DNA of 64,000 nt, from NCBI RefSeq assembly GCF_040760005.1, contig NZ_CP099760.1:4805501-4869500 (forward strand), given 5' to 3'. Position 1 is the stretch's first letter. The number at the start of each line of letters is the position of its first letter. Shown here in pieces: positions 53,600 through 61,736 of the stretch. The translations under genes were made by a program, and so were the position numbers. The stretch is from Pseudomonas sp. stari2. Its GTDB lineage: Bacteria > Pseudomonadota > Gammaproteobacteria > Pseudomonadales > Pseudomonadaceae. The notes under the pieces are model-generated. The model saw only the letters and a program-made list of their open reading frames with translations. It was not told the origin of the DNA and did not search any database.

Positions 53600-56047
53600 A
53601 TGCTGTTGTTGTGGATACTGGTTCTGATCGTCGGCGTGGCGTATCTGGCCCACCGGCGCATCACCCCGCTGCCTGCACTGGGCATCATTGCCGCTTACCT
53701 GTTGGCGATGGGGATTTTCAGCCACGCGCCGGGCTGGCTGCTGCTGATTTTCTGGGTCGTGCTGGCCCTGGTGGCCGCCCCGCTGCTGTTGCCTGACCTG
53801 CGCCGCAAACACTTCACCGCGCCGCTGTTCAGTTGGTTCCAGAAAACCCTGCCACCGATGTCGCAGACCGAACGCGACGCGATCGATGCCGGCACGGTGT
53901 GGTGGGACGGCGAACTATTCAGCGGGCGCCCGGACTGGGACAAGCTGCTGTCCTATCCAAAAGCGCAACTGAGCGACGAAGAACAAGCGTTCATCGACGG
54001 CCCGACCGAAGAGCTCTGCGCCATGGTCACCGACTGGCAGATCGGCCAGTCGATGGACCTGCCGCCAGAAGCCTGGACGCACATCAAGGAACACGGTTTC
54101 TTCGCCCTGATCATTCCCAAGGAGTTCGGCGGCAAGGGTTTCTCCGCCTACGCTCACTCCCAGGTGGCGATGAAACTGGCGACCCGCAGCGGCGACCTCG
54201 CCTCCACCGTGATGGTGCCCAACTCCCTCGGCCCGGCCGAACTGCTGCTGCACTACGGCACCGACGAACAGCGCAATCATTACTTGCCACGACTGGCCCG
54301 GGGTGACGATATTCCATGCTTCGCGTTGACCGGCCCGCTCGCTGGTTCCGACGCCGGCGCCATGCCCGACACCGGGATCATCTGCAAGGGTGAATGGGAA
54401 GGCCAGGAAACCCTCGGCCTGCGCCTGAACTGGGAAAAACGCTACATCACCCTCGGTCCCGTTGCGACCTTGCTCGGTCTCGCCTTCAAGGCCTATGACC
54501 CGGATCACCTGCTCGGCGATAAAGAAGACCTGGGCATCAGTCTGGCGCTGATCCCGACCGACACCCCCGGCGTGGAAATCGGCCGTCGCCACCTGCCACT
54601 GGGCGCAGCGTTCATGAACGGCCCCAACTCCGGCAAGGACGTGTTCATCCCGCTGGACTTCCTCATCGGCGGCCAGGACATGCTCGGCAAGGGATGGATG
54701 ATGCTGATGAATTGCCTGTCGGTCGGGCGTTCTATCTCGCTGCCGGCGGTAGGTACCGGTGCGGCCAAGTTCACCAGTCTGGTGACCGGGCAATACGCGC
54801 AGATCCGTGAGCAGTTCAATGTTCCGCTGTCGGCGTTCGAAGGCATTCAGGAAGCCATGGCACGCATCGGCGGCAACGCGTGGATGATGGACGCCGCCCG
54901 GATGCTGACCGCCAACGCGGTGGATCTGGGCGAGAAGCCCTCGGTGCTGTCGGCGATCCTCAAGTACCACCTCACCGAACGCGGCCGCGAGTGCATCAGC
55001 CACGCCATGGATGTGCATGGCGGCAAGGCGATCATCATGGGCCCGAACAACTATCTGGGCCGCAGCTGGAACGGCGCGCCGATCTTCATCACCGTGGAAG
55101 GCGCGAACATTCTTTCGCGCAACCTGATGATCTTCGGCCAGGGCGCGATCCGCTGCCATCCGTTCGTGCTCAAGGAAATGGCTCTCGCCGGTCGCGAGGA
55201 CAAGGATCAGGCACTCAAGGAGTTCGATGGCCTGCTGCTCAAACACATCGGATTTGCCGTGAGCAACGCCGCCAGCACGCTGGTGCTGAACCTTGGTTTC
55301 GGCCACTTCGAACACGCGCCGGGAGACAAGCTCAGCCAGGGTTATTTCCGCGCGCTCAACCGTCAGGCTGCCGCGTTTGCCATGCTCGCCGACCTGAGCA
55401 TGATGTTGCTGGGCGGAGAACTGAAACGACGCGAGCGGCTGTCGGCCCGTCTGGGCGATGTGCTGAGCAACCTGTATCTCGCCTCGGCGGCGCTCAAGCG
55501 TTATCACGACCTCGATTCCCCGGCGTACATGGAGCCGCTGTTCAGATGGGCGATGGAAGAAAGCCTCGGCCAGTCGGAAAAGGCCCTGGATGAACTGCTG
55601 ACCAACTTCCCGAACCGGGTTTTCGGCTGCCTGTTGCGGGTGATCGTGTTCCCGTTCGGTCGTCGTCACAAAGGCCCGTCGGACAGACTCGGTGCCGAAG
55701 TGGCTGGCGTCATCGGTCGGGCCAAGGGCGATCCGGCGCTGGAAGAACTGCTCGCCGGCTGCTATCGCCCGCAATCGGCGGACGATGCGGTCGGTGCACT
55801 GCAACACGCCTGCGATCAGTTGAACGCTGCGCAACCGTTGCACAAAAAGCTGCATTCATCGCTCAAGAGCGGCCAGGTCAAACCGGTCGCCGGCGAACAC
55901 GCCATCGATGCAGCACTTGAAGCCGGGGTGTTGCAGGCGGTGGAAGCCCAGACCCTGCGTAATGCCGAAGCGGCGCGGCGTAAGGTGATCGATGTCGATG
56001 ACTTCGACAAAGAGGAACTGAAACCGGCGGAAGGGAAAGTCCGCTGA
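53600..56047 (+). CDS. fadE: Acyl-CoA dehydrogenase FadE
   Basis: An 815-residue membrane-associated acyl-CoA dehydrogenase for the first oxidation step of fatty acid degradation, of the same length as E. coli FadE. The N-terminus has two hydrophobic helices (residues 2-65). The dehydrogenase core contains FALIIPKEFGGKGFSAYA, FALTGPLAGSDAG and RSISLPAVGTGAAKF, and a DUF1974 C-terminal domain follows. The ATG at 53600 has a perfect GGAGG. It is the P. aeruginosa PA2815 counterpart. Confidence 0.95.
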   Translation: MLLLWILVLIVGVAYLAHRRITPLPALGIIAAYLLAMGIFSHAPGWLLLIFWVVLALVAAPLLLPDLRRKHFTAPLFSWFQKTLPPMSQTERDAIDAGTVWWDGELFSGRPDWDKLLSYPKAQLSDEEQAFIDGPTEELCAMVTDWQIGQSMDLPPEAWTHIKEHGFFALIIPKEFGGKGFSAYAHSQVAMKLATRSGDLASTVMVPNSLGPAELLLHYGTDEQRNHYLPRLARGDDIPCFALTGPLAGSDAGAMPDTGIICKGEWEGQETLGLRLNWEKRYITLGPVATLLGLAFKAYDPDHLLGDKEDLGISLALIPTDTPGVEIGRRHLPLGAAFMNGPNSGKDVFIPLDFLIGGQDMLGKGWMMLMNCLSVGRSISLPAVGTGAAKFTSLVTGQYAQIREQFNVPLSAFEGIQEAMARIGGNAWMMDAARMLTANAVDLGEKPSVLSAILKYHLTERGRECISHAMDVHGGKAIIMGPNNYLGRSWNGAPIFITVEGANILSRNLMIFGQGAIRCHPFVLKEMALAGREDKDQALKEFDGLLLKHIGFAVSNAASTLVLNLGFGHFEHAPGDKLSQGYFRALNRQAAAFAMLADLSMMLLGGELKRRERLSARLGDVLSNLYLASAALKRYHDLDSPAYMEPLFRWAMEESLGQSEKALDELLTNFPNRVFGCLLRVIVFPFGRRHKGPSDRLGAEVAGVIGRAKGDPALEELLAGCYRPQSADDAVGALQHACDQLNAAQPLHKKLHSSLKSGQVKPVAGEHAIDAALEAGVLQAVEAQTLRNAEAARRKVIDVDDFDKEELKPAEGKVR

Positions 56048-56062
56048 TCCCTTCAATCAGTG

Positions 56063-56102
56063 AAAAACGGGCGCAGGGGCTTTATACTCCCGCGCCCGTT
56101 TT
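56063..56102. terminator. Inverted repeat that combines terminator and promoter
   Basis: AAAACGGGCGC and GCGCCCGTTTT pair around a 17-base loop that contains TATACT, a good -10. It can end the fadE transcript and provide a start for the small gene at 56122. Confidence 0.55.
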
Positions 56103-56121
56103 GCTCTTGAGGACTTATCTC

Positions 56122-56529
56122 GTGTCCAACGTCGTTGCCGATCATCTGGTTTTGCTCGACCACCTGCGCAGTATCCTGGTCGCCGTAGGTGAGGCCGATC
56201 AGGTTCCCGAAGAAAGCCATGCCCTGTTCCTGGAGCGTTTCGACGAACTGCTGGCGTCACTGCCGATCGAGCCGATCGAAAGCCAATACCTGGGCCAGGA
56301 CATCCTGACTCAAGTGATTACCCGCTATCCGCAAATTGCCCACCTGATCCCGCGGGATCTGCTGTGGTTCTTCGCAGGCGACTGCCTGCACTACCTGTCC
56401 GATGAAGAAATCGACATGTATCAGGCACTGGAAGAACGCCGTTACGAAGCCGAACAGAACGACGAGCCGTTCGACTGGAATCAGGAAAAACAGCTGCTGG
56501 CGATGTCCGCCCAGGACAGCAAGCACTGA
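56122..56529 (+). CDS. Conserved small acidic protein (PA2816/17-like)
   Basis: A 135-residue acidic cytoplasmic protein, conserved in pseudomonads after fadE, of unknown function. It shows MDLLHYL-like helices (DLLWFFAGDCLHYLSDEEIDMYQALEERR) but no known domain. The start is GTG at 56122 with GAGGA upstream. It ends in front of a strong bidirectional terminator. Confidence 0.8.
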   Translation: MSNVVADHLVLLDHLRSILVAVGEADQVPEESHALFLERFDELLASLPIEPIESQYLGQDILTQVITRYPQIAHLIPRDLLWFFAGDCLHYLSDEEIDMYQALEERRYEAEQNDEPFDWNQEKQLLAMSAQDSKH

Positions 56530-56544
56530 TTTTCGCCCGGTAAA

Positions 56545-56580
56545 GAAAAGGCCCGCATGGTGATCCATGCGGGCCTTTTT
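56545..56580. terminator. Bidirectional terminator
   Basis: AAGGCCCGCATGG and CCATGCGGGCCTT pair around TGAT with T tracts on both strands. It lies between convergent genes (small acidic protein and LysR). Confidence 0.92.
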
Positions 56581-56587
56581 CATGCGG

Positions 56588-57583
56588 TTAAAGCAGCCCT
56601 TCACTCTCGGGCAATTCGTACTCGGCCAAGGCTTTTGAACCGGTGGGTTTTCCGGGCCTGCTCAATGTCGGCTCTTTCTCCAGGCACTCCACCAGATAGT
56701 CGATGAACACCCGCAGCTTCGGTGGCAGGTAGCGCGTTGGTGAATGCAGCAACCACAATCCGCCATGGTAGGACGCCAGGAATGTCCAGTCCGGCAGAAC
56801 CTGCACGACCAGCCCCTGTTCCAGGGCATAGCGAGCCGTGAAATACGGCAGGCTGCCGATTCCGATGTGCTGCAACACAGCGCCCAGACGCACGCCGGTG
56901 TGATTGGCGGCATACCGGCCACGCACGCCGACCGTCACTGCCTTACTGCCCTTCTTGAATTTCCAGCGCGCATCGCTCGGGGTTTCGCCCAGGTAGATGC
57001 AGCTGTGATTGAGCAAGTCATGGGGATGAGTCGGTGCGCCATGTTCGGCCAGATACTGCGGCGTCGCGCAGAGCAAATGGTCGATGGTCAACAACTGCCG
57101 TCCAACCAACCCCGCCGGCGGCCGCTCAGTGATACGAATCGCCAGATCGACATGATCGTCGATCAGATCCACCTGGCGGTCTTCCAGCAGCAACTCCACA
57201 TCGACCTTCGGATAACGGCGTAGAAATTCCGGCATATGCGGATGAATCACGAAGCGTCCGACCGCTTTCGGCACACTGACCCGCACCAGTCCTTCGGCTT
57301 CGTGGGTGAACTGGCCGCTGATCTCCATCACTGACCTTGCGGCGCTGACCATCTCCTGGCAGCGCTTGAATACCTCTTCACCGCCATCGCTCAAGCGCAA
57401 TTTGCGCGTGGTGCGTTGCAGCAGCCGCGTGGCCAATGCCTTTTCCAGCCGGGAAATACTGCGGCTGACCGCCGAGGGCGACGAACCCAATTGACGAGCG
57501 GCCTCGGAAAAGCTGCCGGTCTCCACGACCTTGACGAAAATCGCCATTTCACCGAGCAACGGCAGAGGAAGATTTATGCTCAC
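56588..57583 (-). CDS. LysR-family transcriptional regulator
   Basis: A 331-residue LysR regulator. The helix-turn-helix is at residues about 20-50 (FSEAARQLGSSPSAVSRSISRLE), followed by a two-lobed substrate-binding domain. It resembles the DsdR/AaeR-like subgroup with an extended C-terminus. It is divergent from the AlaX-like gene, with 90 bases between start codons, so it probably controls the alaX-oxygenase-exporter cassette and itself. Confidence 0.92.
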   Translation of the reverse strand: MSINLPLPLLGEMAIFVKVVETGSFSEAARQLGSSPSAVSRSISRLEKALATRLLQRTTRKLRLSDGGEEVFKRCQEMVSAARSVMEISGQFTHEAEGLVRVSVPKAVGRFVIHPHMPEFLRRYPKVDVELLLEDRQVDLIDDHVDLAIRITERPPAGLVGRQLLTIDHLLCATPQYLAEHGAPTHPHDLLNHSCIYLGETPSDARWKFKKGSKAVTVGVRGRYAANHTGVRLGAVLQHIGIGSLPYFTARYALEQGLVVQVLPDWTFLASYHGGLWLLHSPTRYLPPKLRVFIDYLVECLEKEPTLSRPGKPTGSKALAEYELPESEGLL

Positions 57584-57673
57584 AGCGCAACAGTCCTTTG
57601 ATGTTTGAACGGATTATCACGTTATTGCACGATTCATATAATTAAAAAAGAAACTTTAATAAGGGCATGGAAT

Positions 57674-58300
57674 ATGACGCTTCGCCTCTTTTTCCATAGT
57701 GATGACCTCAAGGCCAATGTGGAAGTCCTCGACTGCACGCCCCACGAGAACGAATTCGCTGTTGTGTTGCGAGCCACGCTTTTTCATCCTCAGGGCGGCG
57801 GCCAGCCCTGCGACACTGGTTGGATCGGCGATAGCCAGGTTCTGCGCGTCGTACAGGATCCAGACCGAATTGTTCACTACGTCAGCCAGCCGGTACCACT
57901 GGGCATGACCCAGATTCGCGTCGATGAAGAACGTCGCCGCTTCAATACCCGCATGCACTCTGCCGGGCATTTGATTGGTCACTTTGTCCAGGCCATGGGC
58001 TGGATGCCGATCAAGGCACACCACTGGCCGGACGAAGGTCGGGTGCAATTCAAGCCAGGGGAATCGGCGCAGGAAGTCGATGCGCATACCGTTCAATACG
58101 GCATCGGGCAATGGATCGAACACGATCTGCCCCGCCTGACGTCCCTGCGCGAAGGCGCGCGGGAAATCGGCTTCGGTGAACTGCCAGCCTACGGTTGCGG
58201 TGGCACCCATGTACGCAGCCTGAAGGATCTGGGCACAGTCACGATCGCGTCCCTTTCGCAGAAGAAAGGCACGTTGTCCGTCCACTACAGCGTGGATTGA
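57674..58300 (+). CDS. AlaX-like alanyl-tRNA editing protein
   Basis: A 208-residue free-standing editing domain related to the AlaRS editing/C-terminal region. The four zinc ligands are present: H95 and H99 (HSAGH) and C175 and H179 (CGGTH). FHPQGGGQPCDTG at residues 37-49 is the substrate-side motif. AlaX proteins hydrolyse mischarged tRNA, usually Ser- or Gly-tRNA(Ala). With an oxygenase and an amino-acid exporter next to it, it may clear tRNA charged with the modified product. The ATG at 57674 follows AAGGGC. Confidence 0.9.
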   Translation: MTLRLFFHSDDLKANVEVLDCTPHENEFAVVLRATLFHPQGGGQPCDTGWIGDSQVLRVVQDPDRIVHYVSQPVPLGMTQIRVDEERRRFNTRMHSAGHLIGHFVQAMGWMPIKAHHWPDEGRVQFKPGESAQEVDAHTVQYGIGQWIEHDLPRLTSLREGAREIGFGELPAYGCGGTHVRSLKDLGTVTIASLSQKKGTLSVHYSVD

Positions 58301-58390
58301 GGATTTCGGGCGCTGCCAGATGCAGCGTCCGACGCCGGGGGAACCGCGCTCGCCGGTTCCGTTGACTACTCGTTAGATGGACCTGAAACC

Positions 58391-59161
58391 ATGATGCTTG
58401 ACGTCGAGCGTCTCGATGAGACGTGCATAAAAAAACTGGCCAACGAAGAAGTCCTCGCCATCCGCGTCAAAGGCTTTTTGCCTGAAGACCAGGCGATCCG
58501 GATTGGCGACAAGATCCTCGAGCCCGGCTTCGAGGGTTATATCAACGCGCCCAGCATTGGCCGCATCGGCATGGCGTTCTATGAGGCGGAAAACCAGCCG
58601 TTGCTGATCGAGGATTACTTCGAACGCGCCACCAGCAACATCGCCGAACTGCGCAACCGCTGCGCACCCTACTCGTCGCCGGTCGACACCCTGCGCTGCA
58701 TGCTCGACGAATCCTGGCCGGCGGGTGCCCATCTGGAAAACCTCTACGGTCGCAAGATGTATGTCGGTCTGTCACGGGTGGTCAAACCCGGCGTCTGCTT
58801 CCTGGCCCACCACGACATCTTCGCCAAGGACGCGCCGGAGAGTTTCCAGGCTCACAGCCTGGAGGCGCAATTCGCCTGCAACGTCTATCTGAACATGCCG
58901 ACCGAGGGTGGCGCGTTGCAGATGTGGGAAGACGACATTTCACCGGACCGGTTCGACGAGATGCGCGGCGACAGCTACGGCATCGATCCGGCGCTGCTCG
59001 GCCCGCCAGCCCTCGAAGTACGCCCGGAACCGGGGGATTTCATCATGTTCAATTCGCGTCGTATGCACTCGGTAACGCCGGGTGTGGCCGATCCGCGCTT
59101 GAGCCTTTCGTTTTTTGTCGGCTATCGCGGCAACGCTTCACCCCTGACTTTCTGGAGCTGA
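58391..59161 (+). CDS. 2OG-Fe(II) oxygenase
   Basis: A 256-residue non-heme iron dioxygenase. The iron facial triad is H140-x-D142 (in AHHDIF) and H226 (RMHSVTPG), and R236 (PRLSLSFF) is placed to bind 2-oxoglutarate. The Asp is kept, which points to a hydroxylase and not a halogenase (halogenases have Gly or Ala there). The genes on either side are an AlaX editor and a LysE exporter, so a free amino acid is a plausible substrate. That assignment is inference. Start ATG 58391 or the following ATG; the Shine-Dalgarno is weak. Confidence 0.88.
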   Translation: MMLDVERLDETCIKKLANEEVLAIRVKGFLPEDQAIRIGDKILEPGFEGYINAPSIGRIGMAFYEAENQPLLIEDYFERATSNIAELRNRCAPYSSPVDTLRCMLDESWPAGAHLENLYGRKMYVGLSRVVKPGVCFLAHHDIFAKDAPESFQAHSLEAQFACNVYLNMPTEGGALQMWEDDISPDRFDEMRGDSYGIDPALLGPPALEVRPEPGDFIMFNSRRMHSVTPGVADPRLSLSFFVGYRGNASPLTFWS

Positions 59162-59162
59162 A

Positions 59163-59801
59163 ATGACATCGAATTACCTGGGCGAGTTTCTGGCGCTGGC
59201 CACCATCCACTTTCTGGCCGTGGTTGCTCCCGGCCCGGACTTTGCCGTGACCATCCGCCAGAGTGTGCGATTCGGTCGACTGGTCGGCATCTGCACGGCA
59301 CTGGGCATCGGCGCGGGGATTTCCGTACACGTGCTGTACACCCTGCTGGGCGTCGGTGCCTTGATGCACACCACGCCCTGGCTACTGACAGTGGCCAAGG
59401 TCGTGGGCGGCGCCTACATCTTTTACCTGGGCATCAGCCTGATCCGCAGCAAACCCAAGACAACGCTGGAAGGTGAAAAGACCAGCGACGAGCCACTGGT
59501 CGAACAATCGCTGTTCAAGGCGTTTACCACCGGTTTCCTGACCAACGCCACCAATCCCAAGGCCACGCTGTTTTTCCTGGCGATCTTCACCACGATCATC
59601 AGCGCCAGCACGCCGCTGGAAATTCAGGCCCTGTACGGACTGTGGATGTGCGGAGTCAATGCATTGTGGTTTGTGATCGTTGCGCTGTTCTTTTCAAGCA
59701 GCAAAGTGCGGCTGCTGTTCATGCGCATGGGGCACTGGTTCGAGCGCAGCATGGGGGTGATTTTGATCCTGTTTGCCGGGCGACTGGTGCTGTCGATGTA
59801 A
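59163..59801 (+). CDS. LysE/RhtB-family amino acid exporter
   Basis: A 212-residue inner-membrane exporter with six predicted helices. The family motif is VVAPGPDFAVTIRQSVRFG at residues 20-38, and FLTNATNPKATLFFLAIF is also typical. Members export amino acids or homoserine lactones. The ATG lies two bases after the oxygenase stop, so the two are translationally coupled and the exporter probably carries the oxygenase product. Confidence 0.93.
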   Translation: MTSNYLGEFLALATIHFLAVVAPGPDFAVTIRQSVRFGRLVGICTALGIGAGISVHVLYTLLGVGALMHTTPWLLTVAKVVGGAYIFYLGISLIRSKPKTTLEGEKTSDEPLVEQSLFKAFTTGFLTNATNPKATLFFLAIFTTIISASTPLEIQALYGLWMCGVNALWFVIVALFFSSSKVRLLFMRMGHWFERSMGVILILFAGRLVLSM

Positions 59802-59816
59802 GCATGCGGATCGGAG

Positions 59817-59849
59817 AAGCCCGGCCCAGACAGATTGGACGGGCTTTTT
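59817..59849 (+). terminator. Terminator after the LysE exporter
   Basis: AAGCCCG (59817-59823) and CGGGCTT (59840-59846) with a T tract on the plus strand. Confidence 0.75.
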
Positions 59850-59996
59850 CGATTCTGCGCCGCTTTTGCGTTTCTGTGCGACGCGTCCCACTTCGGGGGC
59901 TCCCCTATCGCTTGCTTGTGGTGTTAGTTTGCGAAACCGTCTGACGCATCGATCAGACACTTCCTACTCACTGCCTGCAAAGGAATGCCCTTAGCA

Positions 59997-61736
59997 ATGG
60001 ACTTTTCACTCAAGCAACTGGCCGCATCAACCCTGATTCTGGCCAGCCTTTCGTCCGTGACACTGCCCGCCCACGCCAACATCACACCGCAGCAAAGCGC
60101 GACCATCCTCAAGACATTCAGCGATGCAAAGGTCAGTGATTTCCGTCAGTTCCTCGGCGAAGTGGCCAAGAGCGACCTGAGCAAGACCGACGACCTGCGC
60201 CCGTCCATCAGTGCGTTTCTCGACAACAAGACACTGACCGCTGAACAGCAAAACGAGATCTATCGCCTGCTGGGCCTCTACACCCGGGCGAAATACGGCA
60301 AGGCCGCTCTCGAAACCCTGCGCGAACTGGTCGAGATCCCGACTGATCGCAAAGAGGGTGTCGCCCAGCACGAGAATCCTGAATTCATCAAGATCGCCGC
60401 CAAGATCAAGGACCTGGCCGAGTCCTTTGGTTTGAACTACCGAAACGTCGACAACCGCGTTTACGAAATCTCCCTCGACGGCAGCGGCAAGGAAGTCGTG
60501 GGCATTCACGCGCACGCCGACGTGGTGCCAGTGACACCGGAAAACTGGGTGCTGAAGGACGGTACCAAACTCGACCCGTTCAAGGTCACATTGATCGGCG
60601 ACCGCATGTATGGCCGTGGCACCGAGGACGACAAGAACGGGATCGTGGTGACGCTGTATGCCATGAAGGTAATCAAGGAAGAAAAGCTGCCGCTGGCCCG
60701 CAATTTCAAACTACTGGTGGACACCACCGAAGAAACCACCGGCGACGCGATTCCTTACTACTTCGAGCGCAACCCGACGCCGGAGTACAACCTGGCGCTG
60801 GATGGCGGCTACCCGGTTGTGATCGCCGAGAAAGGCTACGGCACGGTCATGGCCAAATTTGCCAAGCGCAAGGCCGAGGGCAAAGGTGCGGAACTGATCT
60901 CGATGACCGGCGGCATGGCGACCAACCAGATTCCATCGGTTTCGCTCGTCACTCTGGTGACAGACAAGCCTGCCGAGCTGGCCGCCAGTCTGCAAAAGGC
61001 CGGTAACGAATACGCCAAACAACATGGCGGCGACTTCGAAGTGAATGCCAAGGTCGATGGCAAGGACGTGAAACTCAGCGTTACCGGCGTTTCCGCGCAC
61101 TCTTCAGAGCCTGAGTCCGGCGTCAACCCGGTCGCCCGCATGCTGGACTTCATCCACAGTGTGGATGGCAAGATCGCGCTCAAACACAACCACATCACCG
61201 ATGCCGCCCGTTACGCCGCCGACAACTGGGGCCTGGACTACAAGGGTGGCAAGCTGGGCGTCGGTTTCGCCGATGACTTCATGGGCCCGCTGACCACCTC
61301 GCTGACCTATGTCGGGATGGATGACAAAACCTTCAAACTCGCGGTCAACCTGCGTGTGCCGAAGGGCAAGTCGCCGCAAGTGCTCAAAACCGAAATCGCC
61401 GACAAACTGGCGGCCTGGAGCAAGAAAACCCACGTCGCGGTCAACTTCGATTACTCGATCGCCGAGCCGATGTACCGCAACCCTGAAGGCGAATGGGTCA
61501 AGGCGCTACTGGCCGTGTCCACCGAAAACCTGGGCATGAAACACGAGTTCGGCACCTCTGCCGGCGCCACCTCGGTGCATGAGCTGCCCAACGGTGTGCA
61601 ATTCGGTCTGGCCCGACCTGAGGTCAAATACACCGGTCACACAGACGGCGAGTTCAAGACCGTTGACCAGTTCCTGCTGGACCTGCAGATCGTTACTGAA
61701 ATGATGGGCCGCATCGGGCAACTGCCGAAGCTCTGA
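59997..61736 (+). CDS. M20-family metallopeptidase, exported
   Basis: A 579-residue dipeptidase-like zinc peptidase. A Sec signal peptide is visible (residues 1-27, ending PAHA). Metal motifs follow: GIHAHADVVPV (His, Asp), EDDKNGIV (bridging Asp), the catalytic Glu pair in TTEETTGDA and a late GATSVHELPNG His. The protein is periplasmic, probably acting on dipeptides or small acylated amino acids. ATG 59997 is preferred; an ATG at 59985 sits too close to AAGGA. Confidence 0.88.
   Translation: MDFSLKQLAASTLILASLSSVTLPAHANITPQQSATILKTFSDAKVSDFRQFLGEVAKSDLSKTDDLRPSISAFLDNKTLTAEQQNEIYRLLGLYTRAKYGKAALETLRELVEIPTDRKEGVAQHENPEFIKIAAKIKDLAESFGLNYRNVDNRVYEISLDGSGKEVVGIHAHADVVPVTPENWVLKDGTKLDPFKVTLIGDRMYGRGTEDDKNGIVVTLYAMKVIKEEKLPLARNFKLLVDTTEETTGDAIPYYFERNPTPEYNLALDGGYPVVIAEKGYGTVMAKFAKRKAEGKGAELISMTGGMATNQIPSVSLVTLVTDKPAELAASLQKAGNEYAKQHGGDFEVNAKVDGKDVKLSVTGVSAHSSEPESGVNPVARMLDFIHSVDGKIALKHNHITDAARYAADNWGLDYKGGKLGVGFADDFMGPLTTSLTYVGMDDKTFKLAVNLRVPKGKSPQVLKTEIADKLAAWSKKTHVAVNFDYSIAEPMYRNPEGEWVKALLAVSTENLGMKHEFGTSAGATSVHELPNGVQFGLARPEVKYTGHTDGEFKTVDQFLLDLQIVTEMMGRIGQLPKL

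Follow-up and report, generated by a model that had tools for sequence, protein, structure and literature searches.

Why should a protein that edits mischarged tRNA share an operon with an iron-dependent oxygenase and an amino-acid exporter? The question is raised by a locus at positions 56588-59801 of a 64,000-nucleotide stretch of Pseudomonas sp. stari2 (contig NZ_CP099760.1, positions 4,805,501 to 4,869,500; hereafter the window), in which a LysR-family regulator diverges from an operon encoding an AlaX-type aminoacyl-tRNA deacylase, an Fe(II)/2-oxoglutarate oxygenase and a LysE-family exporter. A sequence-only reading had joined the last three into one pathway that makes a modified free amino acid, removes it from mischarged tRNA and exports it, and had named co-occurrence of the three genes beyond close relatives as a test. 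The four genes, their order, strands and coordinates are as that reading gave them, and the trio does recur in other genera and families. A functional link between the three genes is supported by this distant co-occurrence, by the co-divergence of AlaX and oxygenase, and by parallel operons in which AlaX accompanies halogenases. The single-pathway reading is partly borne out: AlaX, accompanied by LysE or not, frequently persists in genomes that lack the oxygenase, which makes it resemble an immunity gene as well as a helper of the pathway. The reading that we prefer, and to which we give about an even chance, is that the cassette is a producer-plus-immunity unit, in which AlaX and LysE protect against a serine/threonine-like amino acid formed by the oxygenase. 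New here are the one-way dependence between AlaX and oxygenase, a clade of AlaX proteins with an HxxGH motif, and the presence of members of this clade in SyrB2-type halogenase operons.

Among close relatives the arrangement is invariable. The identical four genes, in the same order and on the same strands, are found in 80 out of 80 kept genome loci (the best 80 of 150 genome loci encoding a relative; all from Pseudomonas and 90-98% identical), which indicates that the arrangement is more than chance. The nearest named oxygenase loci (97-98%) include those of Pseudomonas bananamidigenes, P. koreensis, P. pharyngis and P. sputi, from which the host is probably a Pseudomonas of the fluorescens group. 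Oxygenase and AlaX are each present as one copy in their own genome (E<=1e-3; one contig, 6.31 Mb). Outside this close set, 31 distinct oxygenase loci were read with their flanks (3.6 kb only for G624), a number that excludes L088 (a broken duplicate from the Photobacterium strain already counted), H9, H14, H15, H4 (an H2-sized plasmid listed as Achromobacter) and H13 (a duplicate record of the S. cattleyicolor megaplasmid). AlaX directly adjoins the oxygenase in 10 of these loci, namely in G263, G645, G705, a 6362-bp plasmid of Acinetobacter johnsonii, Photobacterium GJ3, G914, G296, Undibacterium YM2, Caballeronia NK8 and Embleya NBC_00896, and the pair reaches as far as the Actinomycetota, at ~30% identity. 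An exporter adjoins in seven of the ten (LysE in six, an MFS transporter in Embleya). The gene order is mostly AlaX-oxygenase-LysE and becomes oxygenase-AlaX-LysE in G914; the trio is thus no single frozen block. On the Acinetobacter johnsonii plasmid, which is mobilizable, the annotated genes are the trio and mobC only. In Photobacterium sp. GJ3 the trio lies on two replicons (L087, L088), on both of which the oxygenase is split over at least two frames; this may mean that the strain makes no functional oxygenase, or it may reflect assembly errors.

The linkage is tighter the closer the oxygenase: among the 31 loci, AlaX lies beside it in five of five at >=55% oxygenase identity versus 5 of 26 more distant ones. 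The two proteins also diverge together, since their pairwise distances correlate over the 10 loci (Spearman 0.57; 2 of 5000 permutations as high), and the correlation is 0.67 over 12 loci when two from Pseudomonas are added. In evenly sampled genomes the oxygenase itself is rare, being present in 4/369 genomes of the class, 8/398 of the phylum (profile search) and 2/197 of the order of G645, with own and query genomes counted. In the class sample minus the own genome, in which AlaX proteins were assigned to the clade by a gap in score, clade AlaX occurs in 5/368 and the oxygenase in 3/368 genomes, two of them shared (hypergeometric P 4e-4, uncorrected for kinship).

An immunity function predicts an asymmetry, and such an immunity-like, one-way dependence of oxygenase on AlaX is observed in Pseudomonas. 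Among 149 Pseudomonas genomes, 36 encode a close oxygenase (>=88%) and 66 encode AlaX (E<=1e-25); every one of the 36 oxygenase carriers has AlaX, and 30 of the 66 AlaX genomes are devoid of the close oxygenase. Two of these 30 (G806, G843) have a paralogue of 29-35% identity at another place in the genome. All 30 oxygenase-less AlaX loci were read. Twenty-eight of them retain the LysR orthologue together with the flank that lies upstream in the window (acyl-CoA dehydrogenase, PA2817 family), which places these loci at the same chromosomal position, and in five of the 28 an orthologous LysE (74-89%) adjoins AlaX; the two loci located elsewhere (G877, G822) have a divergent LysE (31-32%) next to AlaX. 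The AlaX gene seems to be disrupted in G850, by an in-frame stop, and in G775, where it falls into two pieces; the remaining 28 copies retain intact GGGQ, HxxGH and CxGTH motifs. Where the oxygenase is absent AlaX is under purifying selection, with a median pairwise ratio of nonsynonymous to synonymous substitution rates (dN/dS) of 0.13 (153 pairs in an 18-member oxygenase-less clade) versus 0.12 in carriers (105 pairs). In the AlaX tree most oxygenase-less Pseudomonas rows form their own clades, and the G783 and G784/G868 rows fall inside the carrier clade (support 96/94), their exact placement being weakly supported (91/81 and 82/57). From their position these rows read as cases in which the oxygenase was lost and AlaX retained.

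The AlaX of the cassette belongs to a recognizable subtype. Pfam models give it only 21.6 and 20.9 bits, under their cut-offs, while it matches the solved AlaX-M of Pyrococcus horikoshii (2e1b) at E=3e-12 and by profile at E=1.6e-35; with 68 bits against a cut-off of 300 for the NCBIfam AlaXM equivalog, it is no AlaXM equivalog. The HxxxH and CxxxH sites that the first reading had seen are intact as HSAGH (H95, H99) and CGGTH (C175, H179), and H95, G98, H99, C175 and H179 are invariant in 28 of 28 AlaX rows. Window AlaX and AlaX-M share fold family, zinc motifs and GGGQ motif, but the residue before the second zinc-site histidine is leucine in AlaX-M and glycine in the window. The AlaX clade has a support of 100/99, and this glycine, which defines HxxGH, is present in 66/66 tree rows and in none of 25 generic loci (24 AlaX/AlaRS proteins of the class survey, in which the motif was read only where loci were fetched, and the Priestia AlaX). 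Solved AlaX, alanyl-tRNA synthetases (AlaRS) and their kin have leucine, threonine or glutamine at this position in the alignments shown. Because Gly98 precedes the metal-site histidine, its replacement of leucine or threonine probably widens the editing pocket, and without the side chain there could be room for a larger acyl group. We take the matching residue of Escherichia coli AlaRS to be T567, which has reportedly once been mutated to glycine; our literature search found nothing on either point. Four rows (the Salmonella plasmid, G279, Embleya and S. cattleyicolor) have asparagine for threonine three residues before HPQGGGQ, a change hinting that a different amino acid is handled.

The oxygenase scores 36.7 bits with the Pfam model 2OG-FeII_Oxy_3 (cut-off 27). 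Its iron triad (H140, D142, H226) and R236, which the sequence-only reading had called complete, are intact and invariant in 30/30 aligned oxygenases, a selection from 120 listed matches. The nearest solved relatives by sequence profile and fold are the WelO5 halogenases and SadA, at ~17% identity. In WelO5-type halogenases the aspartate ligand is replaced by glycine (Gly166 of WelO5, as deduced from the G166D entry 5iqu); window oxygenase keeps it as D142, which sets it apart from WelO5 as a halogenase. BesD-type halogenases, considered as closest kin, found no support: BesD is among neither the 17 profile matches nor the 50 fold matches listed in each of two comparisons. The S. cattleyicolor oxygenase had been suspected to be BesD; its motif, HYD, makes it look like a hydroxylase-type relative, and no AlaX lies within 5 kb of it. 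No oxygenase match at E<=1e-5 was found among 50,697 phage records. Pseudomonas paralogues of the oxygenase (33-37%; L133-L140, L142) have another setting, with a cyclodipeptide synthase and an MFS transporter adjoining in 9/10 loci. The synthase of L133 matches a cyclodipeptide synthase in the PDB at E=3e-57, and this locus also contains a TonB receptor, a substrate-binding protein and a luciferase-like monooxygenase; these loci possibly represent an undescribed cyclodipeptide pathway.

An indirect line of evidence comes from AlaX of the same clade in other company. Two clade members sit in SyrB2-type halogenase operons for a carrier-bound amino acid. SyrB2 chlorinates carrier-bound threonine. 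The operon of G279 encodes a carrier protein, a SyrB2-type halogenase (PDB SyrB2 E=2.6e-125, HQA motif), AlaX and a thioesterase; that of the conjugative Salmonella enterica plasmid NZ_CP030220 is annotated as adenylation domain, carrier, chlorinating enzyme, hypothetical protein, DMT transporter and alpha/beta hydrolase, and the "hypothetical protein" (L194, 4001-4543) is a clade AlaX. Oxygenase family and exporter differ from those of the window, the latter being non-homologous, and the logic is the same, which makes these operons the strongest indirect evidence that AlaX guards against a modified serine- or threonine-like amino acid. Simpler sets exist as well: LysR-AlaX-LysE is found on another A. 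johnsonii plasmid, and LysR-AlaX alone, with LysR divergent, in Chimaeribacter and Klebsiella. In G166 (L258) clade AlaX has a LysE-family gene and an FAD-linked oxidase as neighbors, and an oxygenase of the window's family is absent from that locus. Toxic threonine analogues are known from S. cattleyicolor, whose plasmid pSCAT (L193, 5001-5621) encodes an HxxGH AlaX with a CAGTH motif near LysE and TetR genes. Six of eight pSCAT open reading frames matched Pfam, as TetR, LysE, ricin-type lectin, tRNA_SAD (AlaX), methyltransferase and SpoIIE; the L193 AlaX had been suspected to be FthB, and no transaldolase was found among the eight.

In the model that we propose, the oxygenase would hydroxylate an amino acid, presumably a free one, to a serine/threonine-like product that an aminoacyl-tRNA synthetase mischarges. 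AlaX, with its pocket probably widened by Gly98, would hydrolyze the mischarged aminoacyl-tRNA, LysE would expel the free amino acid and LysR would adjust expression. In relatives from which the oxygenase was lost, or which never possessed it, LysR-AlaX would be retained, sometimes with LysE, as immunity against producing neighbors. A beta-hydroxy amino acid as the product is plausible but unproven, because AlaX edits serine on tRNA(Ala) (PMC11295145) and threonyl-tRNA synthetase accepts the larger hydroxynorvaline, which is said not to occur naturally (PMC3158927). A close known parallel is the system of Streptomyces cattleya, in which the toxicity of 4-fluorothreonine is reported to be managed by the FthB deacylase and the FthC transporter (PMC7162832), i.e., by a trans-acting aminoacyl-tRNA deacylase and a transporter within a locus for a toxic amino acid. 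The differences are that FthB is termed ProXp-ST1-related in a review (PMC11295145), unlike the AlaX studied here, and that the biosynthetic enzyme of its locus is a transaldolase. The same layout of putative modifying enzyme, tRNA deacylase and exporter is met in the 80/80 close loci and in other families. The pairing of oxygenase and exporter also recalls the AMB cluster of P. aeruginosa, in which the LysE-type AmbA and Fe/2-oxoglutarate oxygenases belong to the production of a toxic non-protein amino acid; unlike the cassette, AMB needs peptide synthetases, and its abstract names no AlaX (PMC4357302). In the open-licence literature we found no paper on the three-gene combination or on AlaX-linked self-resistance; a single paper on fluorothreonine transaldolase came up.

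Several observations weigh against a producer-plus-immunity unit. Twenty-one of the 31 oxygenase-encoding loci read beyond the close Pseudomonas set have no AlaX (G004, S. cattleyicolor, Dolichospermum, Azospirillum, Streptomyces NBC_00445, 11 Pseudomonas paralogues, the second copy in G645, G529, G726, G475 and G624), and clade AlaX occurs in Pantoea, A. venetianus and Cupriavidus without LysR orthologue, LysE and oxygenase. LysE also adjoins generic AlaX lacking HxxGH, in Priestia and, weakly (E=2e-7), in G202. The 36 and 30 Pseudomonas genomes are not independent events, since carriers and non-carriers fall partly into different clades. Among the nearest solved oxygenases, WelO5 acts on an alkaloid and SadA on an N-substituted amino acid, neither of them on a free amino acid. 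Finally, carriage by a small mobilizable plasmid is as compatible with a resistance cassette as with a producer.

This last point leads to the principal rival, detoxification, which we regard as possible and distinctly less probable than self-protection of a producer. Here LysR would sense an external toxic amino acid of plant or microbial origin, AlaX would clear it from tRNA, LysE would expel it and the oxygenase would inactivate it. Detoxification explains most of the facts used for the producer reading: the LysR-AlaX and LysR-AlaX-LysE sets without oxygenase become simpler resistance sets, and carriage of the trio by a small mobilizable plasmid fits. It also has a precedent in CtdA, a standalone canavanyl-tRNA(Arg) editor described from P. 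canavaninivorans (PMC10018355), which like AlaX is a separate editing protein conferring tolerance to an antimetabolite amino acid and differs in its B3/4 editing family, its tRNA(Arg) and the plant origin of the amino acid. Against detoxification, the sister AlaX proteins in SyrB2-type operons accompany enzymes making a modified amino acid, and the four genes include none identified as transporting or catabolizing an external compound. Ordinary proofreading, with AlaX as a general editor of Ser- and Gly-tRNA(Ala) and accidental neighbors, agrees with the activity of the AlaX proteins known so far, AlaX-M included (PMC11295145), and with the many clade members that occur without oxygenase; it is unlikely given the patchy distribution of AlaX (66/149 Pseudomonas genomes), the clade-specific HxxGH, the linkage to oxygenase and halogenases, and the AlaX-oxygenase co-divergence. 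Cyclodipeptide synthases use aminoacyl-tRNA. Partners of the oxygenase group thus handle this substrate twice (AlaX, and the synthase beside the paralogues), as would be expected if tRNA were the carrier on which the oxygenase hydroxylates an esterified amino acid, with AlaX releasing the product in the role that the thioesterase has in pathways of the SyrB2 type and the cyclodipeptide loci as a second use of the same trick, but this is very improbable, as AlaX persists in genomes that lack the oxygenase and cyclodipeptide hydroxylation explains the synthase neighbor more simply.

If the producer-plus-immunity reading is true, an AlaX subclass annotated as general Ser-tRNA(Ala) deacylase would instead serve specifically in immunity to non-protein amino acids and could be told by HxxGH and its neighbors, and AlaX neighborhoods would offer a route to finding toxic amino acids. 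The reading would also point to an undescribed small amino acid in roughly one in four of the Pseudomonas genomes sampled (36/149). Because oxygenase-positive/AlaX-positive, oxygenase-negative/AlaX-positive and AlaX-negative strains exist within one genus, antagonism between them is directly testable.

Table 1. Features of the AlaX-oxygenase-LysE locus (positions in the window).
Feature	Position	Strand	Remarks
LysR-family regulator	56588-57583	-	GTG start; Pfam HTH_1 and LysR_substrate, both far over cut-off
Divergent promoter/operator region	57584-57673	.	90 bp; predicted
AlaX-type aminoacyl-tRNA deacylase, HxxGH subtype	57674-58300	+	208 aa; profile match 2e1b
AlaX-oxygenase gap with predicted hairpin	58301-58390	+	weak fold support
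Fe(II)/2-oxoglutarate oxygenase, WelO5-like group, hydroxylase-type HxD triad	58391-59161	+	motif, profile
LysE/RhtB-family amino-acid exporter	59163-59801	+	PF01810

The features of the locus are listed in Table 1. The AlaX start is the ATG common to homologues, the mechanical open reading frame opening at TTG 57605, and a single base separates the oxygenase stop from the LysE ATG. The exporter scores 120 bits with its Pfam model (cut-off 25.6); the best NCBIfam model is homoserine/threonine efflux TIGR00949, whose 147 bits stay below the cut-off of 183.95 and assign no subfamily. LysR adjoins AlaX in the 80/80 close loci and in 28/30 oxygenase-less Pseudomonas loci, and a LysR 57-65% identical does so in Klebsiella, Acinetobacter and Chimaeribacter. 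The GC-rich hairpin predicted between AlaX and oxygenase (-37.2 kcal/mol, z -1.75) is not significant, as 11/200 shuffles fold equally well. Rfam over 56000-60300 gave eight matches at E<=1, none of which reaches its gathering score, and six of the eight lie around 56519-56630, at the end of the upstream gene. In the divergent region a -10-like TATAAT is located at 57637-57642 and an invariant TTATC overlaps a -35-like hexamer. A promoter scan returned one site versus 1.1 expected by chance; it is thus conservation that argues for this promoter-like site, TTATC and the ATA.T of the -10 being invariant across 13 aligned loci with and without the oxygenase.

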